Of a DNA stretch of 64,000 nt, positions 1,656 through 53,747 are shown piece after piece. The stretch comes from Strobilurus pachycystidiatus. Taxonomy: Eukaryota > Basidiomycota > Agaricomycetes > Agaricales > Physalacriaceae. The position numbers and the translations under genes are program-made. Where the stretch lies: NCBI GenBank assembly GCA_019915135.1, contig JAHLMK010000038.1, forward strand, positions 58,432-122,431, read 5' to 3'. Position 1 is the stretch's first letter; every line of letters starts with the position of its first letter. The notes under the pieces are model-generated. The model made no database searches and had not been told where the DNA came from. It saw only the letters and a list, made by a program, of their open reading frames with translations.

Positions 1656-4600
1656 ATGGGGCGCTTCAAAAAACATCTACAAAGGCTAAACTTCACCAGT
1701 TCCCACCCAAATAGTGGAAATGGGAAGTATAAAAACGGACAGGCAGATAAAGAGAATACTCTTTCTCCGAGTTCCTCTCCAGCACGACGGGGCTCTCCTG
1801 CTCGGTTCGAGCTGGCAAAGGCGAAAGCTTCCAGTGCAGAGCAGCGAGCCAAGCGCCAGAAAACTCAGCTTAACACAGAAAGACACCGGGTTACGCGTCT
1901 TCGGGACAAAATTTCGGCTGTTGAAAACAAGCTTGTCACTTTGCGAGCTGAAGTGGCAAGATTCCAGTCATTGGAGAGCGGAAGGAGTCACTATATGGGG
2001 TGTCTCAAGGCAAAGGTTGCAGAGCTAGAAGCAGAGAAGGAGCATCTTGCGCAGGCGAGTGACCAACAAGCACAGTATCATCTCGGAGCTTTGACTGCTC
2101 AAAATGCGGCCTTCTATGCCTCTATGGAGCGTACCCAGATTGCTCACAGACAGTCTACTGCTGGCGAGGTAGAGGCTGCCAGACTCCGAGAGCAGACCTT
2201 GCTGGATAGAGAGCGTGACCGGGACCTAGAGTTGAAGCAGAAGGAGAACAGAGCAAGGCTAGAGAAGGGACAGGCTCTACTTCAGAAGGAGCTGCAGTAC
2301 CAGGAGACTGTTAGCGCTCTCCAGCAGCAATGCACGCGTCACGAGGATGAGTCGGCAAAGCTTAGTCGCAATGTTGACCGTCTTTGTGAAGAAAGCTTGC
2401 GACTGTCGCGGGAGAACCGGAATCTTTGCCGCCGTGTCAGCAGATTTTCCGAACGACTTGTTCGGAGGGAAGAGGAGGTTGAGAAGAACAGTAAATGGCG
2501 CTTTGTTCGTGAGAGCGGCGTCATTTCATCGGAAATCAGGACCTGTGTCATGCAGCTGGTCAGTCTTGGAGTACCTGTTGACCGTGTCTCTGGCGCAATT
2601 CTGGCTGTTTCCGATGCGCTTGGAATCCAGCTCGATGGTGCCCTTCCGAGTACACGTTCCACGGGTCGCATTGTCAAGGAGGGCGGTGTACTTGCCGAGC
2701 TACATGTCACAGACATGATGGTTCATGCAGAGCGTGAGTCTATGATTCTCCAGAGGTGCCGTACTTACTGTAATGTATTCAAGATCAAACCATTAGTGGT
2801 GATGGTACATCATGGAAGAACATCAACTACGAAACACGCCATGTTACCTTGTCAGATTACTTGATTGATTCTGATGTGCTGGAGGTTGACTGGAAAAGGG
2901 TAAGCTATTCATTTATACGTTATCCTTTTACTTCATTCATTAATCGAATAGACGTTCCTTCTTGGTCTCTAAGCAACAGCGAGTCATACGAGTGAGGCCC
3001 AAGTAGAGGGTTGGGAACGTCTTGTGTCCCACCTATACTCTGAGTACAACGACTCGCCACTGGGGACTTTGCAGCCAATGGATTTGCGAACGTTCTACAC
3101 AAAAACTTGTGGAGTACTCACCGACCACGCCTCTGATCAGAAGAAATGGTTTGGTATCTTTGACGAAAAGCGCCGCAAGTTCAATTTAGAACTCAGAGGC
3201 GAGAAGGCGCTTCACGATACTCCCTCTGAGGAAATCTTAGAAGCCGTTGCCAAACTCACGAGTCTACGCATTGCATCTTTGGGTGGCACTGAGACTTGGA
3301 ACACGCTTTCGCTCAAAGAGCGCACTCGTCACGGTACCGAGATTTATGACGAAATCATCATGAAGTACGGCCAGGAAGCATTTGATTCGTTGACACCCGA
3401 GGAGAAGGAGGGGTGCAGACTCATGTGGTGTGGATGTGCAATGCACAAGGAGGTGAACAGCTCGAAAGCTGCCTTTGAGGCTGTTGGGAAGACTTGGACT
3501 CTGCATCCAAAAGAGCCGGCACCAATCGTGCTCTTTAACAAAGACAATGCAGCGGCGGCTTGTGCCACTGATCCGTCTGTCAGAGCCCGAGCTAATGCTG
3601 TCTCCGGTTGAGGTGGCATCAAAGTCGTTGAACTCCTTGCGCTACTTCTCAACAATAATCGGAACCGTCAACTCGGGCATCAGGACATGCACTCCCTCTT
3701 CCTTCTTGCACACCGCCACGTCGGCCACATCTTGCGCTTCCCAAACATTGGCCGTTACGGGACTCTCGGCTATGGTGCGACCGAGATCATGGTACACCTC
3801 GATGTATTCATTGAGTTTCTGGAATTCGCCCGCAATCACAAAACAACCGGCAAGTTCACAAACCTGGAATAGAATGTATACAATGCTCTCCACAATAACC
3901 CCACCCTCTCCGAGCTAGCTGCTATGTCCATTTACTCGCAGTCGGTTGCCATTCCCTACATGCGGACCGTTCGACGGGACATCAAGAATCACTTTGATCT
4001 TGACCCATTCCTTAAACGTGTCCTGGCCTTCGTTCAACGTGTTGCCGCCAATCCGGACCTAGTTCTTGCTCAGGAACTTTCTGGTTCTCCAGTCACGGCC
4101 GATGGAGGATCATACGTACGCCCCGAAGGAGTTGTGGCTATTCAGCGAATGGCAGGCGGGCTTCCTCTTCTGCGTGAACTTGTACGGGCCAAATTCACTG
4201 CTGGTGCAGAGGTCTGGGAGCGCTTCATTGAGCATGATGCAAATCTCCTGCGCCAAAAGCTTACCCAGAATCAGAAGCTCATTCGTTTCACTCCAGCTGC
4301 AAATGACCATAGCGAGGGGAGCACTGGCCAGCTGAAGCATTTGAAGACCCGAGCACCCAATGCGACAATGGGATTCACCAACAGCAAGGCTCTGTGGTTT
4401 CGTAACAAGCCCATGCAATGGACAAAAACCAAGATCGCAGCACATCCGGGCTTGATGCCGTATGTCCAAAGGCGAGTACGCGAAAAGGAGGCAGATGGAG
4501 AGGATAAAAAGGCGCGCATAGCACTGGCGAACACTCACATAGCAGTCGCAGCGGATCGGGCAGCGGGACGGGCAAGGACAAAGCAGCGGAGAGACGATAA

Positions 4601-4979
4601 GCAGTCAGAGGTGGATGCATGCATTCCAATCCTTGATGTTGCCATCCTCCAGAATCCAGACGAGCTGAAGGCCATAACCGAGCAAGAATTGCACCTCAAT
4701 ATTGACTGGCATCGCGCTCAGGAGAAGCTGCTCGGAAAGGAGGGGATTATTGTTTTGGAAGGCAGGAAGCTTCCAACCCCGGCAAAGTCCACTATCAAAG
4801 GCGGGCGGCCAGCGAAGATCAAGGCCCTCATAGAGGCAATAGAGAGGCGCCAAAAGCTTGTCAAACTTGGTAAAATACCATTGTTCTACACTCCACCAGC
4901 CGGGGATGACGAGGAAGGGGACGAATCTGCTGATGAGTCAACTGAAATGGACCAGTATCATATGTTTGTGCAAGAATAG
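1656..4979 (+). pseudogene. Coiled-coil hypothetical protein, three exons, three in-frame stops
   Basis: Exon 1 (1656 to about 2755) encodes a basic N-terminus and a long Glu/Gln/Arg-rich coiled coil. A second exon (about 2797-2898) follows an intron ending CATTAG and carries the segment GDGTSWKNINYE. A 53-bp intron (gtaagc...aatag, 2899-2951) leads into a long third exon (2952-4979). That exon stays in one frame but is broken by TAA at 2970-2972, TGA at 3609-3611 and TAG at 3870-3872. It ends in a Lys/Arg/Glu-rich region and an acidic tail. I recognise the layout as a large family of Agaricomycete hypotheticals of about 1000 residues, but know no function. The TGA fits CGA-to-TGA decay at a CpG. 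Minus-strand frames inside exon 3 are shadows. Confidence 0.65.
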
Positions 4980-7173: not shown

Positions 7174-8153
7174 CGTCGTTCCCGTCTACAAAGACACAAT
7201 GCTCAAATCCTTCCCAAGGGCGTCTGGCGCAAAGTTCATTACGTCGACGACATCGTATTCTTTCTTGACGAAAAGAAGGACTGATGGATTTCGCGCAACG
7301 TGCCCCCCATTTTTGGAATAAAATTCACTCGGCACAGACAACACAGGACTCAGATAATTAGGCAATTTGGCAGGGCCCCGCGTAACGAAGGACGGTCCTC
7401 AGAACCTCGGGGAGGTCGAACTGGAAGCGCAAAGAGAAATAGAGGGATCCCACCCAGCGGAAGTGATAACCCAACCACTTGGCAATCAGGGCCGAGGGCC
7501 CAATCCCACAAACCACGCTGCAATCAGTCGATTGCGACGCGCAAGCGCGACAAGTTCAGACGCATTACCAAAGATCCTTGACTGGGGAAAATTGTCTCCT
7601 CGCTCGACCAGGACTAGGCAACACCAAGACAATTGCATAGATTTATAAAAAATACAAAAAGGGCGCGCATCGAGAACTACTATTGGAGACGTATTGGGTC
7701 CATGCCCGTACCTATGCGTCCAAGAAAAAACCCCTTTGCACGACATTCCCTCGAGGCGACCAAGTCCCTCACCAATCCCGCGCCGAGTCCATTGACTGGG
7801 ACCACTCCTCAAAAGTCATGTTCCAACGGGTCTCCGATCCTGGGGTCTCCTCCGCAGCCACAAACTCACGAAAGCAGGCGGCGATGGCCGGATCCCGCTC
7901 CGACGCCCAGAGGATAGCGATGAGGCGACGGATGGAGAGGTGATCTCAAAGATAGCAAAGGATCAGGTCAAAGGCGTCGACGCAATACATCGTCGTGTCC
8001 GGCGCCAACCCAGGAAAAGCATTGACTGAACCCAAGGAAGATGTCTACCGGTTAGTAGAGTATCGCGAGGCGATGGACAAAAACCATACCGTGAGGGGCG
8101 AACAGGAGCCAAGCACAGGTCGCGAACACCCGCAGAGTAGCCGAAGGGGACGG

Positions 8154-9037
8154 TGTTACGACCTGATCCCGCCGTGACAAGGACTCGCTCACGATGGCGC
8201 GCCTCTACGCTCCAACCGTGGCTTTCCTGCGGGCACAACACGCATATCTCCGGGACGCTTCCGTCCAGTCGCTTGGGAGGGATCGCGGAGGACCTCGACG
8301 GATGCTCCTCCGTATCGCCCAGAGAGTGAACACCCAGGAGACCCCGTCTCCTGGTGTCGCGCGCTTCATCGGACCCGGTCCGAGATGTGGCGCATTGAGA
8401 TCCTTCGTTCGAGGAGTGGGGGGCGATACCGGAGTCACCGAGGGAGGGCATGGGGGGAGCCCTTGCTCAGAGGGAGTCAGAGTATCCGGCAAGAGAATGC
8501 GGAAGGAAACTTGATAAGGACGAAGTCTGACTATCTACTACAAAGAGCGTCTGTATTTATACGTCGACCTCTTGATGAATAACTCCTCTTCTCGAAGGTT
8601 CCGTCGGGAGCGCTCCCGACGCGTCGGGAGCGATGTGCTGCGGTAGCGCATGGTACCTTTGATCGAGCAAGGAAGGCGCGCTAGACCGAGCACCGCTGAT
8701 TGGACGATGGGCGGGATAAGGCGGGATGAAGCGGGATAGGGCGGGCCGCCGCCCATGCCATGCGGGACTGATCAGAAGATAGCGATCATTGAGTCATTCC
8801 TCGACCCAATGGGGCGTCGCTCGCACGGAGTGGCGGGAATCGAGGGGAGGCGGCCGACGGATGTGACGTTGGTCCGGCTAGCGAGGCGCGGCGAGGCGCG
8901 TAGGGATCTGATCGCGTTCCATCGGCAACTCCCGTGATGGCGCGACCTGTTCTTCGGGATAAGTTCTCTCCTATGTGGCGCACCCAATCTATAGTTCGTG
9001 CGCGATCTCGTGACAGGTCCACGACCGAGTCATGACA
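8154..9037 (-). repeat. 3' LTR of element B
   Basis: 884 bp, TGTTACGACC...GAGTCATGACA on the plus strand, so the element reads right to left. TATAAATA (complement at 8554-8561) and the perfect palindrome at 8602-8621 mark the promoter. Confidence 0.9.
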
Positions 9038-9050
9038 ATATCCCCTCTTT
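9038..9050 (-). promoter_or_regulatory. Polypurine tract of element B
   Basis: On the minus strand AAAGAGGGGATAT lies directly before the 3' LTR. Equivalent tracts are at 13873-13885 (A) and 16169-16181 (C). Confidence 0.8.
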
Positions 9051-9826
9051 AAGTTTCTCGTCCCGAGAAACGTAAGAGGAGCTTCCGTAGGCAGCGCCTT
9101 TTCGATTTTGGGAAAGGACCAAGTCCGAGTCGGACATTCAGTCGAGTCATCTCCAACGTGACGGGCGTCATACTCCTGGGGATTCTCTGGGGAATCCCCC
9201 GTCCAGTGCTGATTTTGGTGGAGACCGAAAGTTTAATGGACAAGGGCCCGCACGTTCGTTGGTTTCTTGATACGAGCCCAAGGCTGTGCGCTTCTTTTTA
9301 GCTGTGACTTCCTTCGGGTACAATGCGGGTCCCTGGATTTGAGTGGGTTACAGGCGCGTTCGTCACATGGCCGTGCACGCCTCTTCACGCCGGGAGGCCT
9401 CTCCGCTTGGTATAGGACAGTCCGAATAGAGTGGTGGCGTAGGCATCCCGTCGTACTCCAGTGATTTCCCGACGCCTGATTTCGTCAAGGCGCCTTATCA
9501 ATGATCGCCGTTCCCTAGAGATCTGTTTGGAACGCCGCGCGCTCAGACCCCGATGTCGTTAACTTCTGCCGATGGCATTTTCTCATACTGGATCGTCCTT
9601 TTCGAGGACGACAATTTCCTAATCCAGCGGAAGTTCTTAGCGCGCCTCCGTCGAATATATGTCGAGAATCCGGTTCGTCCCAACTGTCCAAAGCTTAAAG
9701 TTTTCTGATTCGGGAATCGTCCTGATTCTGGGGGATGGGAAGGTAATTCCCGGCAGGGCCTCCAGGAAGGGATTGGAGTACAAAAACTCTTTCTGCGTCC
9801 AATTCCTTCCTCATTCCTTTCCTGCC

Positions 9827-10641
9827 ATGTCGTCCGTGTCTTCGTTGTTGCGCTCGCCCACTCGCTCGCCCACTCCTCCGCGGGTGTCTACCCCTCGTCG
9901 TTTGAGCACTCTCTTCGTGTCGGCCCCGCTGGTGGTCAACGGAATTCGTTTGCTGTCCCGGGACGGTTTCCTGGTTTGGGTGCGAGGTGATATTGCTCGT
10001 CCTTCACCCGCGATCGTGGAGGCCTGGTCGCGCTGCGTTGGTTGCATAACCGAGGCCCTCCGAATGGCCTCGACATCGTCGAAAGAGATTACTGATCCCT
10101 TGGTATGGGCTTCACTAGTAAGCCTCTTTTCCTTTTGGCCCCGAGGTTGGTTTTAACGGAGTCGTTTTCCTAGTTCGTCTTGTTTCGCTCATCAATCGCA
10201 CATTTGGGGAGGGTGTTCTTTCGTCCGCCCTTGTCGTGGTGGGCTTTGACGCGCCCGTCTCCTTCGGCTACCCTGCGGGCGTTCTCGACCTGTGCTTGGC
10301 TCCTGTTCGCCCCTCACGGTGTGGTTTTCGTCTATCGCCTCGCGATACTTTACTAACCGGGATGTTTTTCCTTGGACTTTTTAGTCAATGCCTTTCCTGG
10401 GTCGGCGCCGGACACGATGATGTACTGTGTCGACGCCTTCGACCTCATCCTTCGCTATCTTTGGGATCACCTCTCCATCCGTCGCCTCATCGCCATCCTT
10501 TGGGCGTCGGAGCGGGATCCGGCCATTGCCGCCTGTTTTCATGAGTTCATGACTGCGGAGGAGACCCCAGGATCGGCGACCCGTTGGAACATGACTTTTG
10601 AGGAGTGGTCCCGGTCGATGGATTCGGCGCAGGGTTGGTGA
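9827..10641 (+). CDS. Antisense spliced gene of element B, unknown function
   Basis: Exons 9827-10117, 10174-10318 and 10385-10641 give 230 residues. Intron 1 (56 bp, GTAAGC...TTCCTAG) is phase 0. Intron 2 (66 bp, GTGTGG, branch CTAAC, TTTTTAG) is phase 1. The start is chosen from its context (GCCATGT) and because the signature of selection begins there. Compared with the older copy in A, many differences downstream of this ATG fall on synonymous third positions in all three exons, while differences just upstream do not. Copy A also keeps both introns, with donor GTATGG and acceptor TTCAG for intron 2. The N-terminus is Ser/Pro/Arg-rich, followed by a hydrophobic core and a Trp-rich C-terminus. 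I do not recognise a domain. Confidence 0.65.
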
Positions 10642-11121
10642 GGGATGTGGTCGCTTCGAGGGGATGTCGTGGGGATTTTTTGAATGCATAGGTACGGGCA
10701 TGGACCCAATACGTCTTCGATAGTAGTTCTCGATCCGCGCCTCTTGTACTTTTTATAAATCTATGCACCTGTCTTGATGTCGTTTGGTGTTGGTCGAGCG
10801 AGGAGACAATTCTCCTAGGTCGAGGACCTTTGGTGAGGCGTCGGAACTTGTCGCGTTCGCGCGTCGCGATCGACTGATTGCAACGCGGTTCGTGGGATCG
10901 GGCCCTCGGCCCTGATCGCCGAGTGGTTGGGTTACCGCTTCCGCCGAGTGGGAGCCCTCTATTTCTCTTCGCGTTTTCCAGTTCGACCTCCCCGAGGTTC
11001 TGAGGACCGTTTTTCGTTACGCGGGGCCCTGTCGAATTGCCTAATTATCTGAGTCCTGGGTTGTCCGTGCCGAATAAATGTTGTTTCCGAAAATGGGGGG
11101 GGGCGCGTTGCGCGAAACCCA
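10642..11121. other. Spacer between two convergent genes of element B
   Basis: About 480 bp between the 3' ends of the antisense gene and the sense ORF. It includes an AT-rich stretch with TTTTTATAAATC near 10750. The minus-strand frames here look non-coding. The same spacer is present in C. Confidence 0.5.
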
Positions 11122-12078
11122 TCAGTCCTCTTTTTCGTCGAGGAAGAATACAACGTCGTCGACGTAGTGAATTTCGCGCCAGACGCTGTTGGAAGGGTTT
11201 CGAGCATTGCGTCTTTGTAAACGGGAACGACGTTGGAGTTCCTTTGAGAGAGGATTATAACGAACCACTCCATTACTAGTCAATGGTGATTCGATTGAGT
11301 ATATCGGTTCGATGTGAAGTTCTCTGATGAACCCAGGGGACCGTATTCGTCGAAGGGGTTTCTCCAGGTAGTACTGGGAGAAATGGTGCAGGTGTCGTCG
11401 GGTTTGTCGTTGCGAGGCGGGGAGGTGTCCCCCGGATATCTGTGAGAATGTTGCCAGGGCGAGTGTATACCCTTTTACAAAGGAACGGAGGAGGGGCCAG
11501 TCCTCCACTGTTCGAGATATTTGGTGGACCACGTCCATTATCCGTAGTACCTTTCGTGTTACTTCTAGGTGGGGTGGTGTCCCCTCCTCTTCGTCGCGTA
11601 AGATCGTCACCTGGGAGGAGATATATCGGAGTTGGGAGAATAACCGTATGTCGGTTTGGTCGAGTGGATCGAGGGATGGAGCTTCGTGCGAGGTGGTGCT
11701 GAGTACCAGAGTAGTTGTTGTGAACGGGCCTTGAGTTATTGATATGGTGTTGTACGGGCAGTAGGGAGACTTCGTCCTATTGTTACGACCTGATCCCGCC
11801 GTGACAAGGACTCGCTCACGATGGCGCGCCTCTACGCTCCAACCGTGGCTTTCCTGCGGGCACAACACGCATATCTCCGGGACGCATCCGTCCAGTCGCT
11901 TGGGAGGGATCGCGGAGGACCTCGACGGATGCTCCTCCGTATCGCCCAGAGAGTGAACACCCAGGAGACCCCGTCTCCTGGTGTCGCGCGCTTCATCGGA
12001 CCCGGTCCAAGATGTGGCGCATTGAGATCCTTCGTTCGAGGAGTGGGGGGCGATACCGGAGTCACCGAGGGAGGGCAT
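11122..12078 (-). CDS. Sense ORF of element B, starts in LTR, Gag-like position
   Basis: 318 residues. The ATG at 12078 lies in U5 and the frame reads out of the LTR through the primer-binding site. The N-terminal ~100 residues are Ser/Arg/Pro-rich with CVLC. The central part (about residues 120-270) is predicted helical with conserved Trp and Leu (VEDWPLLRSFVKGY). It ends YVDDVVFFLDEKED. Its homologue in the very diverged element D shares GSGRNNRTKSPYCP and the helical core (compare DVV..DW.LL.S.V.G, then R.HL..F...YLEKPLRRI). This supports a real protein. I infer a Gag-type role from position only. Confidence 0.65.
   Translation of the reverse strand: MPSLGDSGIAPHSSNEGSQCATSWTGSDEARDTRRRGLLGVHSLGDTEEHPSRSSAIPPKRLDGCVPEICVLCPQESHGWSVEARHRERVLVTAGSGRNNRTKSPYCPYNTISITQGPFTTTTLVLSTTSHEAPSLDPLDQTDIRLFSQLRYISSQVTILRDEEEGTPPHLEVTRKVLRIMDVVHQISRTVEDWPLLRSFVKGYTLALATFSQISGGHLPASQRQTRRHLHHFSQYYLEKPLRRIRSPGFIRELHIEPIYSIESPLTSNGVVRYNPLSKELQRRSRLQRRNARNPSNSVWREIHYVDDVVFFLDEKED
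11766..11778 (-). promoter_or_regulatory. Self-complementary primer-binding site of element B
   Basis: On the minus strand AGGACGAAGTCTC begins two bases after the 5' LTR. It is the exact complement of GAGACTTCGTCCT, read on the minus strand at 12156-12144 about 30 nt downstream of the TATA box, which is the expected RNA 5' end. This is the arrangement known for Tf1-type fold-back priming. Equivalent pairs are 18897-18909 with 19275-19287 (C) and 62453-62465 with 62831-62842 (D). Confidence 0.75.
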
Positions 12079-12664
12079 GGGGGGAGCCCTTGCTCAGAGG
12101 GAGTCAGAGTATCCGGCAAGAGAATGCGGAAGGAAACTTGATAAGGACGAAGTCTCACTATCTACTACAAAGAGCGTCTGTATTTATACGTCGACCTCTT
12201 GATGAATAACTCCTCTTCTCGAAGGTTCCGTCGGGAGCGCTCCCGACGCGTCGGGAGCGATGTGCTGCGGTAGCGCATGGTACCTTTGATCGAGCAAGGA
12301 AGGCGCGCTAGATCGAGCACCGCTGATTGGACGATGGGCGGGATAAGGCGGGATGAAGCGGGATAGGGCGGGCCGCCGCCCATGCCATGCGGGACTGATC
12401 AGAAGATAGCGATCATTGAGTCATTCCTCGACCCAATGGGGCGTCGCTCGCACGGAGTGGCGGGAATCGAGGGGAGGCGGCCGACGGATGTGACGTTGGT
12501 CCGGCTAGCGAGGCGCGGCGAGGCGCGTAGGGATCTGATCGCGTTCCATCGGCAACTCCCGTGATGGCGCGACCTGTTCTTCGGGATAAGTTCTCTCCTA
12601 TGTGGCGCACCCAATCTATAGTTCGTGCGCGATCTCGTGACAGGTCCACGACCGAGTCATGACA
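11781..12664 (-). repeat. 5' LTR of element B
   Basis: 884 bp. TATAAATA (complement at 12181-12188) lies 41-60 bp downstream (in the sense of transcription) of the perfect palindrome CGTCGGGAGCGCTCCCGACG at 12229-12248. A third half-copy follows at 12249-12259. The predicted RNA start is near 12156. Confidence 0.9.
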
Positions 12665-13096
12665 GACGGGCACGTCAAAGCCCACCGCAACAACGGCGGG
12701 CGGAAAAACACCCTCCCCAAATGTGCGACCGCTGAGCGAAACAGGATGAACTAGGAAAATAACTCCGTTAAACCAACCTCAGGGCCAAAAGGAAAGGAGG
12801 CTTACTAGCGAAGCCCATACCAAGGGATCAGTGATCTCCGCCGACGATGTCGAGGCCATTCGAAGGGCCTCGGTTATGCAACCGACGCAGCGCAACCAGG
12901 CCTCCACGACCGCAGGTGAAGGACGAGCAATGTCACCTCGCACCCAAACCAGGAAACCGTCCCGGGACAGCAAACAAATTCCGTTAACCACCAACGGGGC
13001 CGACACAAAGAGAGTGCTCAGACGACGAGGAGTAGGCATCCGCGGAGGAGTGGGCAAGCGAGTGGACGCGCGCAGCAACAAAGACACAGACGACAT
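12665..13096 (-). pseudogene. Antisense gene of element A, 5' half (split by B)
   Basis: Start at 13096, exon 1 to about 12806, the same GTAAGC...TTCCTAG intron, and the first part of exon 2 up to the B insertion at 12665. The rest lies at 8153-7690 on the far side of B. There intron 2 (GTATGG...CTAAC...TTCAG) and exon 3 are recognisable, but a Trp codon has become TGA. So the gene is inactivated both by insertion and by a nonsense change. Confidence 0.6.
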
Positions 13097-14293: not shown

Positions 14294-15279
14294 TTTGTTT
14301 CATGTTCCTACCATGTTGATCACACCCTCAGAATCATCCGTCATGAACTCGATGATACTCCAAATCTGCCACGCCACATTGAGTGTGTCTGCAAGTCTCA
14401 CCATCTGTGAAGTGTACTGATACAAGATCATAGAACCAATGTATTAATGCCAATACTGCCTTTGAGCCCTGCTTCATCTAAGTGGCCATTTGTTATGATC
14501 TTGGCCCGGAGGTCCGACAGGCACCAGGCCTCGCCGTCCTCCTGGTTCCCGAGAGGTCGTCTGGAACCCCTCGGGGCGCTCGAGGAGCGCACCCGCGGGC
14601 AAAATCTATATCTTGTTCCACCACGAACCCCGCTCACAGATATCGCCTCCGCGGAAGCATCGTCTTCCTCCCTGTCCCTGCAACATACCATTGGATACGA
14701 CCTTACGAGAAGCCAGCGTAACCGAGTTGCGGACTCTCTCTGTCATTTCGACACCTCAGGGAAAGCCTAGCAAACTAAGTAACATACGCGCCCACATCCG
14801 GATCACTCGGTCCGACTACAGGAAAGTTCGAGGGAACACTCTCGCCACATCAACTACCGAGCTCGCTCGTACAAATCTAGACTCAGCAGGGCGGCCGACC
14901 GCCATAGGAGAAAGACGCGTCCGACCGTCTCCGTTCGGCCGAGGACCTTTCCCAATTGCCCGCCCCTCGCACAATTATGTCCACGAGGGCTCTCCCCTCT
15001 GGTAGAGCTGGCTGGCGCTTCTTGAGAAGAAGCACCATGCGCTCCCATGATACCGCCTGCCCTATCGCGCCCATCGCCATCGATTCCGCCTCACGACCGC
15101 GTGGGTGAATTCCGCCGCTGATCAGCATCGACTCCCCGCCGCGTCGGCTGACAACCCGCCATCGCCGGACAGGCCTGGGTCGTTTACGCTTTTAGCCGGG
15201 ACCTCGAAGAAGGTTCTCGATGTTTGGAGAATGAGTCAGGAGCGCCCTTTTGGGTAAAGGGCGGGACAGCGCGGTCCCG
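14294..15279. other. Unassigned sequence between element A and element C
   Basis: GC-rich and without a recognisable gene. Short overlapping frames occur on both strands. Together with 19801-20100 it is the preinsertion sequence of C. That sequence has TATAAATACAGCGCT just right of the insertion point, so it may be part of another, unrecognised LTR. Confidence 0.3.
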
Positions 15280-15284
15280 CCGCC

Positions 15285-16168
15285 TGTTACGACCTGATCC
15301 CGCCGTGACAAGGACTCGCTCACGATGGCGCGCCTCTACGCTCCAACCGTGGCTTTCCTGCGGGCACAACACGCATATCTCCGGGACGCTTCCGTCCAGT
15401 CGCTTGGGAGGGATCGCGGAGGACCTCGACGGATGCTCCTCCGTATCGCCCAGAGAGTGAACACCCAGGAGACCCCGTCTCCTGGTGTCGCGCGCTTCAT
15501 CGGACCCGGTCCGAGATGTGGCGCATTGAGATCCTTCGTTCGAGGAGTGGGGGGCGATACCGGAGTCACCGAGGGAGGGCATGGGGGGAGCCCTTGCTCA
15601 GAGGGAGTCAGAGTATCCGGCAAGAGAATGCGGAAGGAAACTTGATAAGGACGAAGTCTCACTATCTACTACAAAGAGCGTCTGTATTTATATGTCGACC
15701 TCTTGATGAATAACTCCTCTTCTCGAAGGTTCCGTCGGGAGCGCTCCCGACGCGTCGGGAGCGATGTGCTGCGATAGCGCATGGTACCTTTGATCGAGCA
15801 AGGAAGGCGCGCTAGATCGAGCACCGCTGATTGGACGATGGGCGGGATAAGGCGGGATGAAGCGGGATAGGGCGGGCCGCCGCCCATGCCATGCGGGACT
15901 GATCAGAAGATAGCGATCATTGAGTCATTCCTCGACCCAATGGGGCGTCGCTCGCACGGAGTGGCGGGAATTGAGGGGAGGCGGCCGACGGATGTGACGT
16001 TGGTCCGGCTAGCGAGGCGCGGCGAGGCGCGTAGGGATCTGATCGCGTTCCATCGGCAACTCCCGTGATGGCGCGACCTGTTCTTCGGGATAAGTTCTCT
16101 CCTATGTGGCGCACCCAATCTATAGTTCGTGCGCGATCTCGTGACAGGTCCACGACCGAGTCATGACA
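15285..16168 (-). repeat. 3' LTR of element C
   Basis: 884 bp, nearly identical to the B LTRs. The palindrome and TATA box are intact. Confidence 0.9.
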
Positions 16169-16957
16169 ATATCCCCTCTTTAAGTTTCTCGTCCCGAGAA
16201 ACGTAAGAGGAGCTTCCGTAGGCAGCGCCTTTTCGATTTTGGGAAAGGACCAAGTCCGAGTCGGACATTCAGTCGAGTCATCTCCAACGTGACGGGCGTC
16301 ATACTCCTGGGGATTCTCTGGGGAATCCCCCGTCCAGTGCTGATTTTGGTGGAGACCGAAAGTTTAATGGACAAGGGCCCGCACGTTCGTTGGTTTCTTG
16401 ATACGAGCCCAAGGCTGTGCGCTTCTTTTTAGCTGTGACTTCCTTCGGGTACAATGCGGGTCCCTGGATTTGAGTGGGTTACAGGCGCGTTCGTCACATG
16501 GCCGTGCACGCCTCTTCACGCCGGGAGGCCTCTCCGCTTGGTATAGGACAGTCCGAATAGAGTGGTGGCGTAGGCATCCCGTCGTACTCCAGTGATTTCC
16601 CGACGCCTGATTTCGTCAAAGCGCCTTATCAATGATCGCCGTTCCCTAGAGATCTGTTTGGAACGCCGCGCGCTCAGACCCCGATGTCGTTAACTTCTGC
16701 CGATGGCATTTTCTCATACTGGATCGTCCTTTTCGAGGACGACAATTTCCTAATCCAGCGGAAGTTCTTAGCGCGCCTCCGTCGAATATATGTCGAGAAT
16801 CCGGTTCGTCCCAACTGTCCAAAGCTTAAAGTTTTCTGATTCGGGAATCGTCCTGATTCTGGGGGATGGGAAGGTAATTCCCGGCAGGGCCTCCAGGAAG
16901 GGATTGGAGTACAAAAACTCTTTCTGCGTCCAATTCCTTCCTCATTCCTTTCCTGCC

Positions 16958-17772
16958 ATGTCGTCCGTGTCTTCGTTGTTGCGCTCGCCCACTCGCTCGC
17001 CCACTCCTCCGCGGGTGTCTACCCCTCGTCGTTTGAGCACTCTCTTCGTGTCGGCCCCGCTGGTGGTCAACGGAATTCGTTTGCTGTCCCGGGACGGTTT
17101 CCTGGTTTGGGTGCGAGGTGATATTGCTCGTCCTTCACCCGCGATCGTGGAGGCCTGGTCGCGCTGCGTTGGTTGCATAACCGAGGCCCTCCGAATGGCC
17201 TCGACATCGTCGAAAGAGATTACTGATCCCTTGGTATGGGCTTCACTAGTAAGCCTCTTTTCCTTTTGGCCCCGAGGTTGGTTTTAACGGAGTCGTTTTC
17301 CTAGTTCGTCTTGTTTCGCTCATCAATCGCACATTTGGGGAGGGTGTTCTTTCGTCCGCCCTTGTCGTGGTGGGCTTTGACGCGCCCGTCTCCTTCGGCT
17401 ACCCTGCGGGCGTTCTCGACCTGTGCTTGGCTCCTGTTCGCCCCTCACGGTGTGGTTTTCGTCTATCGCCTCGCGATACTTTACTAACCGGGATGTTTTT
17501 CCTTGGACTTTTTAGTCAATGCCTTTCCTGGGTCGGCGCCGGACACGATGATGTACTGTGTCGACGCCTTCGACCTCATCCTTCGCTATCTTTGGGATCA
17601 CCTCTCCATCCGTCGCCTCATCGCCATCCTTTGGGCGTCGGAGCGGGATCCGGCCATTGCCGCCTGTTTTCATGAGTTCATGACTGCGGAGGAGACCCCA
17701 GGATCGGCGACCCGTTGGAACATGACTTTTGAGGAGTGGTCCCGGTCGATGGATTCGGCGCAGGGTTGGTGA
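16958..17772 (+). CDS. Antisense spliced gene of element C
   Basis: Same structure as in B: exons 16958-17248, 17305-17449 and 17516-17772, 230 residues, phase 0 and phase 1 introns. It is intact and oriented opposite to the LTRs. No function recognised. Confidence 0.65.
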
Positions 17773-18252
17773 GGGATGTGGTCGCTTCGAGGGGATGTCG
17801 TGGGGATTTTTTGAATGCATAGGTACGGGCATGGACCCAATACGTCTTCGATAGTAGTTCTCGATCCGCGCCTCTTGTACTTTTTATAAATCTATGCACC
17901 TGTCTTGATGTCGTTTGGTGTTGGTCGAGCGAGGAGACAATTCTCCTAGGTCGAGGACCTTTGGTGAGGCGTCGGAACTTGTCGCGTTCGCGCGTCGCGA
18001 TCGACTGATTGCAACGCGGTTCGTGGGATCGGGCCCTCGGCCCTGATCGCCGAGTGGTTGGGTTACCGCTTCCGCCGAGTGGGAGCCCTCTATTTCTCTT
18101 CGCGTTTTCCAGTTCGACCTCCCCGAGGTTCTGAGGACCGTTTTTCGTTACGCGGGGCCCTGTCGAATTGCCTAATTATCTGAGTCCTGGGTTGTCCGTG
18201 CCGAATAAATGTTGTTTCCGAAAATGGGGGGGGGCGCGTTGCGCGAAACCCA

Positions 18253-19209
18253 TCAGTCCTCTTTTTCGTCGAGGAAGAATACAACGTCGTCGACGTAGTG
18301 AATTTCGCGCCAGACGCTGTTGGAAGGGTTTCGAGCATTGCGTCTTTGTAAACGGGAACGACGTTGGAGTTCCTTTGAGAGAGGATTATAACGAACCACT
18401 CCATTACTAGTCAATGGTGATTCGATTGAGTATATCGGTTCGATGTGAAGTTCTCTGATGAACCCAGGGGACCGTATTCGTCGAAGGGGTTTCTCCAGGT
18501 AGTACTGGGAGAAATGGTGCAGGTGTCGTCGGGTTTGTCGTTGCGAGGCGGGGAGGTGTCCCCCGGATATCTGTGAGAATGTTGCCAGGGCGAGTGTATA
18601 CCCTTTTACAAAGGAACGGAGGAGGGGCCAGTCCTCCACTGTTCGAGATATTTGGTGGACCACGTCCATTATCCGTAGTACCTTTCGTGTTACTTCTAGG
18701 TGGGGTGGTGTCCCCTCCTCTTCGTCGCGTAAGATCGTCACCTGGGAGGAGATATATCGGAGTTGGGAGAATAACCGTATGTCGGTTTGGTCGAGTGGAT
18801 CGAGGGATGGAGCTTCGTGCGAGGTGGTGCTGAGTACCAGAGTAGTTGTTGTGAACGGGCCTTGAGTTATTGATATGGTGTTGTACGGGCAGTAGGGAGA
18901 CTTCGTCCTATTGTTACGACCTGATCCCGCCGTGACAAGGACTCGCTCACGATGGCGCGCCTCTACGCTCCAACCGTGGCTTTCCTGCGGGCACAACACG
19001 CATATCTCCGGGACGCTTCCGTCCAGTCGCTTGGGAGGGATCGCGGAGGACCTCGACGGATGCTCCTCCGTATCGCCCAGAGAGTGAACACCCAGGAGAC
19101 CCCGTCTCCTGGTGTCGCGCGCTTCATCGGACCCGGTCCAAGATGTGGCGCATTGAGATCCTTCGTTCGAGGAGTGGGGGGCGATACCGGAGTCACCGAG
19201 GGAGGGCAT
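18253..19209 (-). CDS. Sense ORF of element C, Gag-like position
   Basis: 318 residues, starting in the U5 part of the LTR and crossing the primer-binding site, as in B. One noticed substitution relative to B is Ser for Cys near residue 66 (LDGSVPE versus LDGCVPE). Intact. Confidence 0.65.
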   Translation of the reverse strand: MPSLGDSGIAPHSSNEGSQCATSWTGSDEARDTRRRGLLGVHSLGDTEEHPSRSSAIPPKRLDGSVPEICVLCPQESHGWSVEARHRERVLVTAGSGRNNRTKSPYCPYNTISITQGPFTTTTLVLSTTSHEAPSLDPLDQTDIRLFSQLRYISSQVTILRDEEEGTPPHLEVTRKVLRIMDVVHQISRTVEDWPLLRSFVKGYTLALATFSQISGGHLPASQRQTRRHLHHFSQYYLEKPLRRIRSPGFIRELHIEPIYSIESPLTSNGVVRYNPLSKELQRRSRLQRRNARNPSNSVWREIHYVDDVVFFLDEKED

Positions 19210-19795
19210 GGGGGGAGCCCTTGCTCAGAGGGAGTCAGAGTATCCGGCAAGAGAATGCGGAAGGAAACTTGATAAGGACGAAGTCTCACTATCTACTACA
19301 AAGAGCGTCTGTATTTATACGTCGACCTCTTGATGAATAACTCCTCTTCTCGAAGGTTCCGTCGGGAGCGCTCCCGACGCGTCGGGAGCGATGTGCTGCG
19401 GTAGCGCATGGTACCTTTGATCGAGCAAGGAAGGCGCGCTAGATCGAGCACCGCTGATTGGACGATGGGCGGGATAAGGCGGGATGAAGCGGGATAGGGC
19501 GGGCCGCCGCCCATGCCATGCGGGACTGATCAGAAGATAGCGATCATTGAGTCATTCCTCGACCCAATGGGGCGTCGCTCGCACGGAGTGGCGGGAATCG
19601 AGGGGAGGCGGCCGACGGATGTGACGTTGGTCCGGCTAGCGAGGCGCGGCGAGGCGCGTAGGGATCTGATCGCGTTCCATCGGCAACTCCCGTGATGGCG
19701 CGACCTGTTCTTCGGGATAAGTTCTCTCCTATGTGGCGCACCCAATCTATAGTTCGTGCGCGATCTCGTGACAGGTCCACGACCGAGTCATGACA
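18912..19795 (-). repeat. 5' LTR of element C
   Basis: 884 bp. It ends GAGTCATGACA and is followed by the target duplication CCGCC. Confidence 0.9.
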
Positions 19796-26822: not shown

Positions 26823-27860
26823 TCGAAGTAAAGACGGATTCCAAGGGTAGGGAGCGTTTTCAGAGGCCTCTGCACCTCTCACACTCTCCCTCATACTGTC
26901 TGAGCTCACTCAGTACAGTCTGGCAGTGAGCAGCAGTGTTTTCATTGTGGTATCTCAACTTTCTCCAAATGAGCTCAAAATCATTTGGCAGTAAATCGCA
27001 AATCACACAACATCGGTCATAGCTACCATGTTGCTGTTTGCACTCTCATGTCTCTCATGATGTCCCCAACTCATCCTATGAGTTTGGACATGTCACACCA
27101 TCATGCCCATGTGTGGTATCAACTTTTCTCCAAATGAGCTCAAATGCATTTGCGAGTAATTTCCATTTTTGGAGATGTAGCCTCATGCTACTGACTTCCT
27201 TTCTTGACCCACTAGCCTCAAGGCTATCTCCCCTACTTAGGGATGCTATCTCCGATCACAGGAGCTGTCAATCATGACAGCATCTGTCAATCATTTCCAG
27301 AAGATCACTTCTGATGCCATGTGTTCAGTTACCCATATCTCAGCCATGTGACATGGAATAACTTTGCACTTTCCCAGGATCAATCTGTCATCATCTGGCC
27401 TAGGCCCAGTGCTGTCTGTCAGCTGATGCTGGGTCTAGGGCGCCCCAGAGTTGCGAGTTTGATCCCCACTGTGTTGCAGCTTGCTTCCTGCCTTCATCTT
27501 CGCATTTTGGCTCTGCAAGGTTTGCACACAGTGTCCCTCCAGTTCTGCTCACAGGAACTGATGCTCCTTTCACCAGTGTACGCTTTGGACAGTCTCTAGC
27601 CCTCCCTGCTGTCTGCTACAGCTAGATCTAACTCGATCTTTCACTGCTGTCCATTGTCACTGGTATGCTTATCCAACTTGATTTCGAGTTGATGCCTTAT
27701 CTTGTGCACAGTGTCCAATCCCTGCCTGCTCCCACGCTTCCTGATAGCGTCGCACTTGGGATTCTGTGCACAGGTGTGTCCCCAGTCCACTCTTCATAGG
27801 CTACAAGCTCAATTTCGCTTCTGTGCACAGTTTAGCTTGCTCTGCCTTTGTTTCTGCTTC
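26823..27860 (+). repeat. Split direct repeat A1
   Basis: 1038 bp, starting TCGAAGTAAA, repeated at 32314-33351 with very few differences. It presumably carries the promoter; the ORFs begin just after it. Short frames inside it are not supported as genes. Confidence 0.9.
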
Positions 27861-27906
27861 ATCACCCTTGCTCCTACCTCGCACATCGCTCTGCTCATCC
27901 ATCTCT

Positions 27907-29319
27907 ATGCCCCCCATCGCTGTCTCTGAGTCCTCCCACAATGATCTCGACGTCATTGCCTCTCCTCAGGCCTCCCCTGATCCTGAGGCCTCTCCTGCGC
28001 CCCATACCATCATTCCTGACTCTGAGATCGACCGCTCTCGCATCAAGAAGCTCAGTGAGAGACTGCAGCTCCTTGTTACTCAGTTCTCTGATGGCACCAT
28101 CGGTAACCACGCTGAGTTCATGCGTCAAGCACGGCTCACTGGTGCCAGCGCTCACGAGATGGCCGACTACATTGACCAAGTCACCCAGGTCATCGCTGCT
28201 CGACGCGCTGCCCGCGTCGACTCTGCACCTGCTGAGCCCACTGCCGACCCAGCCACTGTTGCTGCTCGTCAGGTTCAGGAGGAGCAGCAGCGCCAGCACA
28301 AGCAGGCTGTCGAGGACGCCGCTTGGGCCGCTCTTGCTGCCAACTTGGATGCCCTCGATGCTGAGGGCAACAGAGCAGCACCCGTTGTTCCTAGTCCGAA
28401 CACCGGTCCTCTCTCTGCTGCCTTGTTTGCCAAGCTCCTTAATCCCACCTCCACTTCGGAGTCAGGGATTCCTTCCTCCATTCTTGCTGCAGCTCCTCAT
28501 CTTGCGCAGCTCTCCTCTTTGTCTGATCTCTCTCCACATCTACAAGAGACAGACCGCCTCCGCAGACTCTTTAGAGCGGACAAGGATGCAGATGCTGTTG
28601 CAGACCTTCTCCGTTCCCTCTCTCATCCTGATCCATTTGCCCATTCTTTGTGGCGTCTCATTGTCCAAGATCTTTATGTTGACTTTGAGAAACTCCTTGC
28701 TTCCTTTGGGTCTCACCCATCTCATCATGATGATGAACCCAAGGACTTTGGAGGTGGTTATGCTCTTGTGCGCAAGGACCACGTCTCTGCACGTCGGTCT
28801 CTTTCCACAGAGTCAGACTGGACCCGCTGCTTTGATGCATGGTCTCGAGGTGTTCTCCTTGTCTACCCTCACCGGAACAAGGAGTTGGAGAAGTACAGAG
28901 CCATTGTGGTGGAGATGTTCCGTGCTTCTGAACCAGATCTTTCATTTCCTATCCGCTTTGATTGTCAGACTCGTGAACGTTATGCCAAGTCTCCTTTTGA
29001 GCTGCATGACCGGTCTCAACTTCATTTCCCTATGCTCTCTGAAATGCTTCGCTCTCGAGGCAGCCCATCTGCGCTTAAGCGTCCTGCAGCTACTTCAGCT
29101 CAGGAGCCGTCTCCAAAGCGTCAGAGGGTTATTTGTCAGAACTGGAATCTGGGGAATTGTCCCAAGACTCCTTGTGCTTTCAAGAGGATTCATGGCACCT
29201 GTTCTGAGTGCGGCGGCAAGCATCCCGCTCGTGACAAAGAACAGTGTCTTGTCCTCCTCAATGCCCGACGAGCAGTTGCTCATAGCAAGTCGGGTGCTGG
29301 AAGCGCAGGCTCAGCCTAG
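27907..29319 (+). CDS. Gag-like protein of the Ngaro element
   Basis: About 470 residues from the ATG at 27907, chosen as the first ATG in frame just past A1; an upstream extension lacks an ATG. The N-terminal third is Ala/Pro-rich with a helical segment, the middle holds a predicted helical core, and the C-terminus has a cysteine/histidine cluster. The cluster runs from CQNW...CPKTPC to HGTCSECGGKHP (about 29134-29250), suggesting nucleic-acid binding. It overlaps the next ORF by about 59 nt. Confidence 0.8.
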   Translation: MPPIAVSESSHNDLDVIASPQASPDPEASPAPHTIIPDSEIDRSRIKKLSERLQLLVTQFSDGTIGNHAEFMRQARLTGASAHEMADYIDQVTQVIAARRAARVDSAPAEPTADPATVAARQVQEEQQRQHKQAVEDAAWAALAANLDALDAEGNRAAPVVPSPNTGPLSAALFAKLLNPTSTSESGIPSSILAAAPHLAQLSSLSDLSPHLQETDRLRRLFRADKDADAVADLLRSLSHPDPFAHSLWRLIVQDLYVDFEKLLASFGSHPSHHDDEPKDFGGGYALVRKDHVSARRSLSTESDWTRCFDAWSRGVLLVYPHRNKELEKYRAIVVEMFRASEPDLSFPIRFDCQTRERYAKSPFELHDRSQLHFPMLSEMLRSRGSPSALKRPAATSAQEPSPKRQRVICQNWNLGNCPKTPCAFKRIHGTCSECGGKHPARDKEQCLVLLNARRAVAHSKSGAGSAGSA

Positions 29320-31153
29320 AAGCTTATCTGGCTCAAAGCGGAAGGCAGAAGATGAGCAGTCTGCACCGCGTTTCAAAAGAGGCTATGTTTTTACTTCCAA
29401 TGTATCATCAGAATCCAAAGCTCCTCCGAGCATTTCTTCCACTTATACTGCTCCTCCTCTACCTAGACCACCTCAGCAGATCCTAGATGATCCACAGATC
29501 CAAGCCTCGCTTGCAGCTGTTGCGGATTACATCCGTGTTGATACTCCTTTCAATGTTGACCGCATTGAGCACTTGTTGACCAAACATCCCAACCGTCCAT
29601 TTGTTGATTCTGTCATTTGCTCTCTCTGTCAAGGTTTCTGGCCTTTCCATGATGGAGAATGGGAAGCTCATCTCAAAGAGCGCTATGATAACTATGCCAC
29701 AGAGGCTCAAGATCTTGCAGAACTTCGAGTTTATAGAGATCAAGAGATTGCAGCTGGTCGCTGGTCTCCAGCTCTTCCAGAGAACTTTGTACTTCTTCCT
29801 GGAATGCGCATTTCTCCCATGTTTGTTGTCTGGCAGAAAGGCAAACCTCGTGTTGTCATGGATCATACTGGCAATGGTCTCAATGATGGCATATCCAGAG
29901 AAGATGCCAAAGTGCGCTATGATGATATGCATTCATTTGGTCAACTTCTCAATGATGTGCTCAAAGCACATCCAAATGAGGAACTGTTGCTCTTCAAGAG
30001 TGATGTATCCAAAGCATTCCTCAACCTTCCTGCCCATCCCATTTGGCAACTTCATCAAGTGGTCACTGTGGATGGCAGATACCACATTGTGCGCCGTCTC
30101 ATTCTGGGCACTCGTGCTTCTCCTCGCTGTTGGTGTTCATTCTCTGGACTTCTCAACTGGATAGCTGGGGAACTTGGAGTCATTGGTCTTCATGACTATA
30201 TGGATGACTTCTTTGGCTGGGATTTCAAGCGCAATCTTGTTATGTTTCATGGCAAACTGCGTCCCCACCATCAAGTTCAACTTCTTGTCTTTTGGGATCT
30301 CATTGGTTGTCCATATGATGACAAGAAGCAGGAGCATGGAGTCACGCTCAAAATCATTGGCTTCTGGGTTGATATCCATTCTGGTTCTATCTCCCTCTCT
30401 CCAGATTCTCTTGACTCTATGATTACTTCAATCAATGAGTTCTTGGGACAACCCAAGCCTCCTCTTCAGCAATGGCAGCAACTTGCTGGTTATCTGAATT
30501 GGACTCTCAATGTCTTGCCCTGGGCACGCCCAGCTCTCACAGAGCTCTATCGCAAGATGAGCGGCAAGACCATCCGCTTCAAAGGCATTCCACTCAATGC
30601 TGAGGTTAAGCAGGACCTCAGTTGGTTTGTCAAAGTTGCAAAGGATTGCATTGGCATTCGCTTTGTTGATGCTCAATCTTGGAGTGATGATGAGGCAGAT
30701 TTCATTGGCTGGACAGATGCTAGCAATTCTGGTCTTGCATTTGTATATGCAGGCAATGGCTTTGCTTATCAGCTTAAGACTATCACGGGAGTGGACACAT
30801 TCTTCCGTGAACTTCTTGCCATTCTCTGTCTCATCCACCATGTTGCCTCATTCAAGATTCCTCCTCGTCGCATTCTGATCCATTCAGACAGCATGGATTC
30901 AGTTGCAGTTTTCAACTCCTTGTCTGCATCTCAATCATCACACAATGCTATTTTGTTAGCGATTGCTGATATTGTGCTGTGCACAGGCATTGATGTGCGA
31001 GTTAGACACATCCCTGGAGTTGACAACATCATGGCAGACTTGTTGTCTCGCCTTCTGTTTGATGATTTTTCCAAACAGTTTCCCTCCTACCGCGTCTGCA
31101 CATTCCAGCCCCCAAGAGAGCTGGTTCCGGCGCGATGGAGAGAGTGCTTTTAG
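29261..31153 (+). CDS. Reverse transcriptase-RNase H of the Ngaro element
   Basis: About 630 residues from an ATG at 29261. Reverse transcriptase motifs in order: PRVVMDHTGNGLN, LLLFKSDVSKAFLNLP (catalytic Asp), SPRCWCSF, and the YMDD box at 30197-30208. RNase H follows with GWTDASNSG (Asp), FRELLAIL (Glu), IHSDSMDS (Asp) and HIPGVDNIMADLLSR (His/Asp). No stops interrupt it. The open frame extends upstream through the Gag region, but that part is a shadow. It is reached through the overlap with the Gag frame, perhaps by reinitiation or frameshifting. No integrase or protease is present, as expected for this class. Confidence 0.93.
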   Translation: MPDEQLLIASRVLEAQAQPRSLSGSKRKAEDEQSAPRFKRGYVFTSNVSSESKAPPSISSTYTAPPLPRPPQQILDDPQIQASLAAVADYIRVDTPFNVDRIEHLLTKHPNRPFVDSVICSLCQGFWPFHDGEWEAHLKERYDNYATEAQDLAELRVYRDQEIAAGRWSPALPENFVLLPGMRISPMFVVWQKGKPRVVMDHTGNGLNDGISREDAKVRYDDMHSFGQLLNDVLKAHPNEELLLFKSDVSKAFLNLPAHPIWQLHQVVTVDGRYHIVRRLILGTRASPRCWCSFSGLLNWIAGELGVIGLHDYMDDFFGWDFKRNLVMFHGKLRPHHQVQLLVFWDLIGCPYDDKKQEHGVTLKIIGFWVDIHSGSISLSPDSLDSMITSINEFLGQPKPPLQQWQQLAGYLNWTLNVLPWARPALTELYRKMSGKTIRFKGIPLNAEVKQDLSWFVKVAKDCIGIRFVDAQSWSDDEADFIGWTDASNSGLAFVYAGNGFAYQLKTITGVDTFFRELLAILCLIHHVASFKIPPRRILIHSDSMDSVAVFNSLSASQSSHNAILLAIADIVLCTGIDVRVRHIPGVDNIMADLLSRLLFDDFSKQFPSYRVCTFQPPRELVPARWRECF

Positions 31154-32148: not shown

Positions 32149-32229
32149 CACAAATCTCTACTCTCATCTCGCGTCTCGTTCACATCTTTCTCACCACCAC
32201 CATCCCCCACACACAACATTCATAGCTCT

Positions 32230-32313
32230 CATAGCCAGTCACGATCCGCGTAATTTATAGGCCCTTGGGCCCGTTTTAGCCTAACTTCATCTGTGTGAAC
32301 CTTGAAGCATTGG
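32230..32313 (+). repeat. Split direct repeat B1
   Basis: 84 bp, CATAGCCAGTC...GAAGCATTGG, repeated at 33418-33501 and abutting A2 directly. Confidence 0.9.
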
Positions 32314-53285: not shown

Positions 53286-53747
53286 TAGACATGACCACGA
53301 ATAAGGAGTAAAGGAGAATATTCATGAATATATTCCTAATCTTATTCATGAATATGAATATGATGAATATATTATATTCGTGAATAAGAAAAAGTTGACG
53401 AATATAGAATATGAACCTTCAAGTTCACATAATCCTCAACTCATTCATGAGTGTCTGACAATACTGAATTCTCAGTACTGAAGACAAGTTTATGATAAAT
53501 TTAGATGCTGTTTGAATGATTTATAGTTCATTCAATAACTTTAACTGTGATTTTGAGTGACATTGAGATGATTATACTTGTATATTCGTGAATATTCATG
53601 AATAAAAGCGAAATATTTGCAGTGAAGATTAAGTTGACGAATAAGATTAAGAGTATATTCATGAATAACAATTATGACCCTTGGAGGGGGGATTATTCGT
53701 GTGCATGAATAAGAATATACTCGAATATATATTCGTGGACATCTCTA
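53286..53747 (+). mobile_element. hAT-type MITE, copy 1
   Basis: 462 bp, very AT-rich, with imperfect 18-bp terminal inverted repeats (TAGACATGACCACGAATA and the complement of TATTCGTGGACATCTCTA). It is flanked by a perfect 8-bp duplication ATTCAGAA at 53278-53285 and 53748-53755. TAGNG-like termini and an 8-bp target duplication fit the hAT superfamily. No coding capacity. Confidence 0.88.

Follow-up and report, generated by a model that had tools for sequence, protein, structure and literature searches.

The analysed window, a stretch of 64,000 nucleotides from Strobilurus pachycystidiatus (assembly GCA_019915135.1, contig JAHLMK010000038.1, positions 58,432 to 122,431), contains members of two families of LTR elements, A and D, which carry a spliced gene on the strand opposite to that of the element (Table 1). 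LTR pairs with TG..CA ends, a target duplication, a priming site and a polypurine tract mark them as LTR retrotransposons. Element A1 runs on the minus strand, as indicated by the TATA box in its LTR, the polypurine tract before the 3′ LTR and the like order of features in the chromovirus L064, where pol reads in this direction. The gene reads on the plus strand and is therefore antisense, as an earlier note on this DNA had proposed. It lies between a sense ORF and the 3′ LTR, and no pol was found in the element.

Table 1. Features of the A, B and D elements, with positions in the window and strand
Feature	Position	Strand	Remarks
Element A1	8154-12664	-	884-nt LTRs; internal region about 2.74 kb
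A1 target-site duplication GACGG	8149-8153 (left), 12665-12669 (right)		
A1 3′ LTR	8154-9037	-	
A1 polypurine tract AAAGAGGGGATAT	9038-9050	-	core as in chromovirus G (L064)
A1 antisense gene, exon 1	9827-10117	+	97 codons from ATG; next intron phase 0
A1 antisense gene, intron 1	10118-10173	+	56 nt, GTAAGC...CCTAG
A1 antisense gene, exon 2	10174-10318	+	145 nt; next intron phase 1
A1 antisense gene, intron 2	10319-10384	+	66 nt; TACTAAC branch-point-like site
A1 antisense gene, exon 3	10385-10641	+	stop codon included
A1 sense ORF	11122-12078	-	318 aa; starts within 5′ LTR, spans LTR/PBS junction
A1 primer-binding site (PBS)	11766-11780	-	complementary to own R region (self-priming layout)
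A1 5′ LTR	11781-12664	-	TATA box 12181-12188; R-region copy of priming sequence 12144-12156
Element A2	15285-19795		target-site duplication CCGCC; probably element C of the earlier note
A2 antisense gene	16958-17772	+	exons 16958-17248, 17305-17449, 17516-17772
B antisense gene, exon 1	12806-13096	-	older element B, split by the A1 insertion
B antisense gene, exon 3	7769-8025	-	one internal stop
D antisense gene, decayed and truncated	60581-61215	+	exon 1 remnant to 60703, exon 2 60772-60922, exon 3 from 60971
D 5′ LTR	62468-63299	-	PBS/R arrangement as in A (sequence read by eye)

Gene model and copies

Joining the three A1 exons (9827-10641, plus strand) gives an open frame of 230 codons followed by a stop. 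Both introns start with GT and end with TAG. The two splice junctions and the 230-residue product predicted in the earlier note are reproduced exactly by this frame, and the gene would be expected to be spliced in vivo. The note had assigned the gene to four elements, A, B, C and D. It is intact in A1 and A2. In B one stop interrupts exon 3. The D copy of the window is decayed, with a truncated exon 1 and stop codons in both other exons; intact D relatives occur elsewhere in the genome. A1 and A2 are not a tandem duplication: their target-site duplications differ (GACGG and CCGCC), so A2 is a separate insertion. An unclassified stretch (14300-15280) separates the right end of B from A2.

All comparisons were made within this one genome (51.8 Mb, 61 contigs). 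The A internal region gave 70 candidates, 40 of which were scored, with 21 full-length copies at 95-100% identity among the matches scored. The A sample consisted of A1, A2 and B plus 20 genomic loci, of which 19 are full copies from elsewhere in the genome and one, L028, is a copy at 81%. Of the 24 A-family rows, 21 have an intact spliced frame, the exceptions being L028 and the two halves of B, which were counted as two rows; L021 and L024, both scored as intact, lack 12 nt of exon 1 without a change of frame. Intron 2 measures 62-72 nt across the A rows that hold it.

The D family has at least 42 matches in the genome. The sample of 31 comprised 20 loci in full, ten over the gene only (L049-L058) and the window's copy, and the frame is intact in 23 of these (16 of 21 and 7 of 10, respectively). 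The others are truncated (L032, L040, the window's D), have frame-shifting length changes (L037, L047), or carry stops in exon 3 (L049, L058) or exon 1 (L055). Left out of the 31 rows were L059 (E, see below), L060 (D-like, with a broken exon 3) and L061 (C6:2086500-2088600), a D copy whose 5′ end is missing and which has a tandem duplication spanning the end of exon 2, intron 2 and the start of exon 3.

The D gene has exons of 228, 151 and 251 nt, constant in untruncated copies except L037, L047 and L049, and introns of phase 0 (58-76 nt) and phase 1 (47-70 nt). Its second acceptor was picked by hand, among three in-frame candidates in L030, as the one common to the other D copies. A, D and a single-copy homologue, E, have identical intron phases. 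The alignment of A with D on which the earlier note had relied (VEAWSRCV with LEEWIRCI at the end of exon 1, and STCAWLLFAPHG with AVKAWVLLSPWG) is real: the A and D type 1 proteins are 32% identical over 174 residues (E about 1e-17 in a four-protein set).

Elsewhere in the window, two plus-strand ORFs are found at 1656-2864 (402 aa, coiled-coil-rich by eye) and 3924-4979 (351 aa). An element at 26823-33300 has repeats at 26823-27122 and 32314-32613 and contains two frames, one resembling an RT (27848-31153) and the other a recombinase (31135-32148); by its motifs it looks DIRS/Ngaro-like, but neither frame matched a Pfam family at 0.001. Two AT-rich inverted repeats of 465 nt, 87% complementary (53286-53750 and 60079-60543), end exactly at the truncation of D and possibly belong to a terminal-inverted-repeat insertion into it.

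Priming, mobility and a putative helper

Within the 15 nt behind the 5′ LTR of A1, 12 nt are complementary to A1's own R region, 32 nt from the TATA box. A complement of this length was matched by one of 2000 letter shuffles of the 25-nt site. The arrangement, which A and D have in common, is presumably the self-priming layout of the Tf1 type. A search of the genome for the LTR/PBS junction (up to three mismatches) gave 63 matches, 25 on A and 38 on D elements. Because every junction found at this limit belongs to A or D, a third family with the same primer site is ruled out as a helper.

Of the loci L009-L048, 40 in all, 31 were tallied by hand as having LTR pairs of 800 nt or more; in the other nine the pairs are shorter or there is none within the stretch fetched. 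The LTRs are at least 99% identical in 28 of these 31, so the elements moved recently, and such recent insertions carry the gene. Target duplications of 5 bp are equal in 19 of 21 rows scored by pattern, two of these being D.

RT, RNase H and integrase are not encoded in the A internal region (about 2.74 kb; Pfam search). Neither the A sense ORF nor the antisense product matched a Pfam family at E 1, and the sense ORFs of B and D gave weak, sub-threshold matches. The chromovirus L064 (G) encodes RT, RNase H, integrase and a chromodomain. Its LTR start, TGTCATGAC, is common to A, the D start being TGTCATGA, and it has the polypurine core AGAGGGGATAT in common with A (one G copy examined). L064 or a relative is thus the probable helper that mobilises A and D. 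The likeness concerns the termini, however, and L064, although self-priming in layout too, has its own 10-nt match at a primer site that differs from that of A and D, which speaks against this assignment. When the antisense proteins were compared with gag and pol of G, the best BLAST match had an E of 0.12, which rules out the antisense gene as a relative of the G Gag.

The sense ORF is 318-319 aa long in A and 333-334 aa in D. Most copies have it extending across the LTR/PBS junction; a broken or shortened version is found in L027, L028, L031, L037, L041, L045 and the window's D. The A and D versions are 35% identical over 222 residues, partly in a stretch that is constrained as LTR and primer site. 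Its dN/dS is 0.24-1.84 in the LTR part and 0.30-0.75 in the internal part, with few changes in both. A second protein encoded by the internal part is moderately supported by these sequences. No domain was recognised in Pfam, NCBIfam or PDB sequence searches, and a structure model (mean pLDDT 37, mostly helical) was too weak for a structure search. Fragments resembling the sense ORF occur in another repeat, at L065 388-663 (C1:3868900-3870300; 40% to residues 132-233 of the D sense ORF) and eleven other places; all twelve contain one or two stops, and no credible match to the antisense gene was found in the 1.4 kb of L065.

Selection on the antisense frame

In the spliced frame, dN/dS is 0.12-0.17 between D types (dS 0.24-0.97), 0.26 within D type 4 (pair L042-L044), 0.30-0.38 within A and 0.22-0.29 between A and B. 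Values near 1, which the earlier note had set against a functional gene, were thus not observed. In 14 forward comparisons the true frame gave 0.12-0.38, against 0.50-2.77 in the two shifted frames, which reach 1.1-2.8 between D types. Fisher tests of synonymous versus non-synonymous changes in seven comparisons gave p values of 1.6e-11 to 6e-25 for the four D pairs. For A, p was 8e-6 in the comparison with B, and 1.3e-3 and 2.9e-3 in those with the two copies at 95%. Among the four D types the exons have no gap columns, in contrast to intron 1 with 2-18 and intron 2 with 4-19. The gap contrast and the dN/dS values together form the pattern of a translated, spliced gene. They reflect purifying selection on source elements and not on individual copies.

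Chance open frames, or the shadow of a gene on the sense strand, might appear to draw support from one mirrored opposite-strand frame with a dN/dS of 0.23-0.29 in two D pairs; such a low value is expected where third positions face each other, and the idea is all but ruled out by stops in all three opposite-strand frames over the exons (5, 4 and 8 in A1; 3, 2 and 4 in L030) and by the gap-free exons next to introns with 2-19 gap columns each.

We therefore have very little doubt that the antisense gene is real and selected as a protein. The earlier note argued that a spliced antisense gene kept for so long should have a function, and the long purifying selection in two diverged families, A and D, bears this out. 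No credible domain or solved relative of the product was found in Pfam, NCBIfam and PDB sequence searches, no relative of A exon 1 was found in viral contigs, and the structure model of exon 3 (pLDDT 56, mostly helical) was too weak for a structure search.

A divergence island in the D family

At 95% identity the 23 intact D genes form six groups, two of them adjoining at this level. Four types were compared region by region, with one copy each (L030, L034, L038, L044; the LTR gap counts of type 1 stem from cut ends). Apart from the close pair of types 1 and 2, exons 2 and 3 differ by 13-32% between types, and the upstream flank, sense ORF and LTRs by only 0-5%. For types 3 and 4, for example, the difference is 1% over the first 550 internal bases and 2% directly before the gene, and the sense ORF and LTR are at 1% and 4%, respectively, as against 31% in exon 2, 19% in exon 3 and 53% in intron 1. 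Even types 1 and 2 differ by 5-9% in the exons versus 2-4% in the same flanks. Introns differ by 10-53% between types, and the stretch directly downstream of the gene (internal 1508-1800) has diverged too, by 7-25%.

A windowed comparison of 16 D copies with L030 gave 91-100% identity in most windows outside internal positions 650-2150. The exceptions are one LTR stretch at 85-86% (L038, L047) and one L045 window at 85%; outer-LTR parts of L029, L045 and L046 are foreign or missing in this comparison. Identity is 88-89% for types 2-4 at positions 651-750, directly upstream of the gene. Between 851 and 1350 it falls to 58-76% in type 4 and 66-83% in type 3, and from about 1350 to 2250 it recovers.

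Gene and flanks also support different trees (L032, L039, L040 and the window's D were excluded from the full-length alignment and trees). The gene tree joins types 1 and 2 as sisters (support 96/97), which the flanks reject (AU p 0.0037), and makes type 4 a single clade (100/100), which the flanks likewise reject (AU p 0.0011). Types 2 and 3 could form a clade as far as the flanks are concerned, but the gene rejects this grouping (p 0.0135). Gene and flanks of the D family have evolved as a mosaic. In view of the contrast in divergence and the conflict of the trees, the gene lineages look far older than the backbones that now carry them. In L055-L057, exons 1 and 2 match type 4 (94-100% in protein) and the best match of exon 3 among the sampled copies is at most 80%, which suggests exchange within the gene as well.

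Deep gene types on similar flanks, with a type 4 clade that the flanks reject, fit selection for different types. Since only the antisense gene keeps such deep types, we infer that its product takes part in a type-specific interaction. Against this stand the A family, which has no divergence island and whose sampled copies are essentially one type, and the low dN/dS between D types, which gives no direct sign of positive selection. A type-specific regulator is thus a tentative proposal, to which we give somewhat less than an even chance. Both objections can be read in favour of a passive origin of the island. The gene would be real and selected, but its diverged segments may have ceased to recombine in reverse transcription (a heterology barrier) or may have come in by hybridisation, similar flanks staying homogenised; a type-specific function would then be unnecessary. 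The 0-5% difference of flank, sense ORF and LTRs in the four types, and their conflict with the gene tree, would also be expected. However, drift should lose types, and six clusters of intact genes coexist in one genome. Five of the six include a copy with an LTR pair at least 99% identical, the sixth (L056/L057) having been fetched over the gene only, and divergence is maximal at the gene and declines on either side. We regard a passive island as possible but rather unlikely.

A single-copy homologue

The homologue E (L059, C1:1953700-1956300) encodes a product of 215 aa whose identity is 35% with A and 37% with D type 1. Its introns of 47 and 51 nt are bounded by GT..AG and have phases 0 and 1. 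E lies between genes for a nucleotide-sugar transporter and IMPDH (IMP dehydrogenase); on the IMPDH side, unclassified frames on the minus strand intervene. No LTR pair was found in the 10 kb around it, but an LTR-like stretch, 74% identical to the L064 LTRs, lies about 0.4 kb upstream. Of 81 candidate DNA matches to L059, 40 were scored; the first 358 bases of the locus resemble about 40 other places, both L064 LTRs (74%) included, and beyond these bases no match was found among those scored, nor was a second copy of E. When E was used as a protein query, 92 matches were obtained, three of which are E itself. Of the other 89, 84 fall on known A or D intervals and two in L061, a copy of D; the last three are at C6:1390900 and C1:4033403/4033639. 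No relative of the E product was found in phage records.

E may be a donor or a domesticated copy of the element gene. As a donor lineage, it would represent a host gene that an LTR element captured in antisense orientation and that serves the host or travels as a passenger. Its 215 open codons, two introns of the same phases, identity to A and D, apparent single-copy state and position between two cellular genes are what a captured gene would lead one to expect. On the other hand, the upstream stretch resembling an L064 LTR would suit a domesticated copy (compare yeast DRT2, PMC10951436), and the long conservation across two element families argues against a mere passenger. Capture of a host gene is, to our mind, doubtful, though a serious candidate.

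Possible function of the antisense gene

The elements can be described beyond what the earlier note had observed, in that they lack pol and have a sense ORF, a self-priming layout, a divergence island and a single-copy homologue. For the gene, the note had put forward copy control, packaging or host interaction as candidate roles. An explanation that combines these features would run as follows. A and D are LTR retrotransposons without pol, and a chromovirus in the same genome probably moves them in trans. The gene for their accessory protein points to the 5′ LTR and presumably has a promoter of its own. Both introns could persist because the packaged genomic RNA would be the opposite strand, where these splice sites go unread. 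The protein would be maintained by selection acting on the elements and would most likely act in trans on the life cycle of the element, at the level of RNA, capsid or integration, possibly as a type-specific regulator or self-limiting factor with a role comparable to that of Ty1 p22. That the gene serves the element is, in our judgment, probable. The combined explanation, with trans-mobilised elements, a selected accessory protein and its type-specific or self-limiting role taken together, we consider evenly poised between right and wrong, its core being independent of the last of these steps.

A more specific version is that the gene is a spliced antisense self-recognition gene whose product, in each element type, either restricts or licenses elements of that type. 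Many old types would then be maintained on recombining, similar backbones by negative frequency dependence, much as in the analogy of plasmid incompatibility groups, and E would be a progenitor or a domesticated restriction factor. This remains speculative and we think it unlikely to be right in full.

The antisense RNA, rather than a protein, might be what matters. Convergent transcription would yield double-stranded RNA for RNAi, and divergence at silent sites would evade cross-silencing. The island roughly overlaps the antisense gene, and synonymous and intron sites are the most diverged (dS 0.24-0.97; introns 10-53%). For antisense ORFs of plants, PMC7264820 considers a role of this sort. 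However, the amino-acid sequence is strongly conserved and frame and splice sites are kept exactly, which favours a protein, so that a role of the RNA instead of the protein appears improbable; both could act jointly.

Comparison with known systems

Antisense genes in LTR elements are already known, and no established function is assigned to them in the reviews considered here. Plant LTR retrotransposons with antisense additional ORFs include Grande (gene23), RIRE2 and Retand (ORF4), grouped as aORF-3R, and some Retand elements are non-autonomous (PMC7264820, PMC11963269). As described there, the plant aORF-3R is an antisense coding ORF upstream of the 3′ LTR in most copies; A and D likewise carry a conserved antisense ORF at this place in most copies (21 of 24 and 23 of 31). 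The plant ORFs sit between pol and the 3′ LTR, whereas the A/D gene sits between the sense ORF and the 3′ LTR. The Grande ORF has its own promoter, and the function of plant aORFs is given as not established (PMC7264820, PMC11963269). The word intron is absent from the main text of both papers, in contrast to the two introns of the A/D gene, and a divergence island like that of D is not part of their descriptions of plant aORFs.

The earlier note knew of no fungal case, which does not hold: Boty of Botrytis cinerea has an antisense gene, brtn (Zhao et al. 2011, as cited in PMC7264820 and PMC8365987). As these citing papers describe it, Boty is, like A and D, an LTR element of a fungus that bears an additional antisense gene. 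Our search of open-licence papers yielded none on a spliced gene of this kind in a fungal LTR element. The A/D gene combines conserved intron positions, strong purifying selection, a single-copy genomic homologue and, in D, a divergence island that sets it apart from the rest of the element. The A/D gene offers a direct handle on the purpose of antisense genes in LTR elements, and it illustrates how introns may survive in a retroelement on the strand that is not packaged.

Tf1-type self-priming chromoviruses resemble A and D in that the PBS is complementary to their own R region. In contrast to them, A and D lack pol, which their putative partner chromovirus G has.

Yeast DRT2 is, like E, a genomic homologue of an element gene outside the elements. 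According to PMC10951436, it derives from gag and was shown to restrict, whereas E is known from its sequence.

The nearest evolutionary parallel to the D types is, by analogy, that of Ty1 and Ty1′. These are described in PMC7055915 as mosaic elements that are alike except for the regulator-bearing segment, which decides type-specific restriction. Ty1 p22 is the C-terminal half of Gag, encoded on the sense strand, whereas the A/D gene is separate, antisense and spliced, and its products are not recognisable as a piece of Gag in the comparison with G described above. For Ty1, restriction has been shown (PMC7055915); the regulatory role that we propose for the A/D gene is read from sequence, and in the D family, as in Ty1 and Ty1′, elements that are otherwise alike differ in the segment carrying the candidate regulator.
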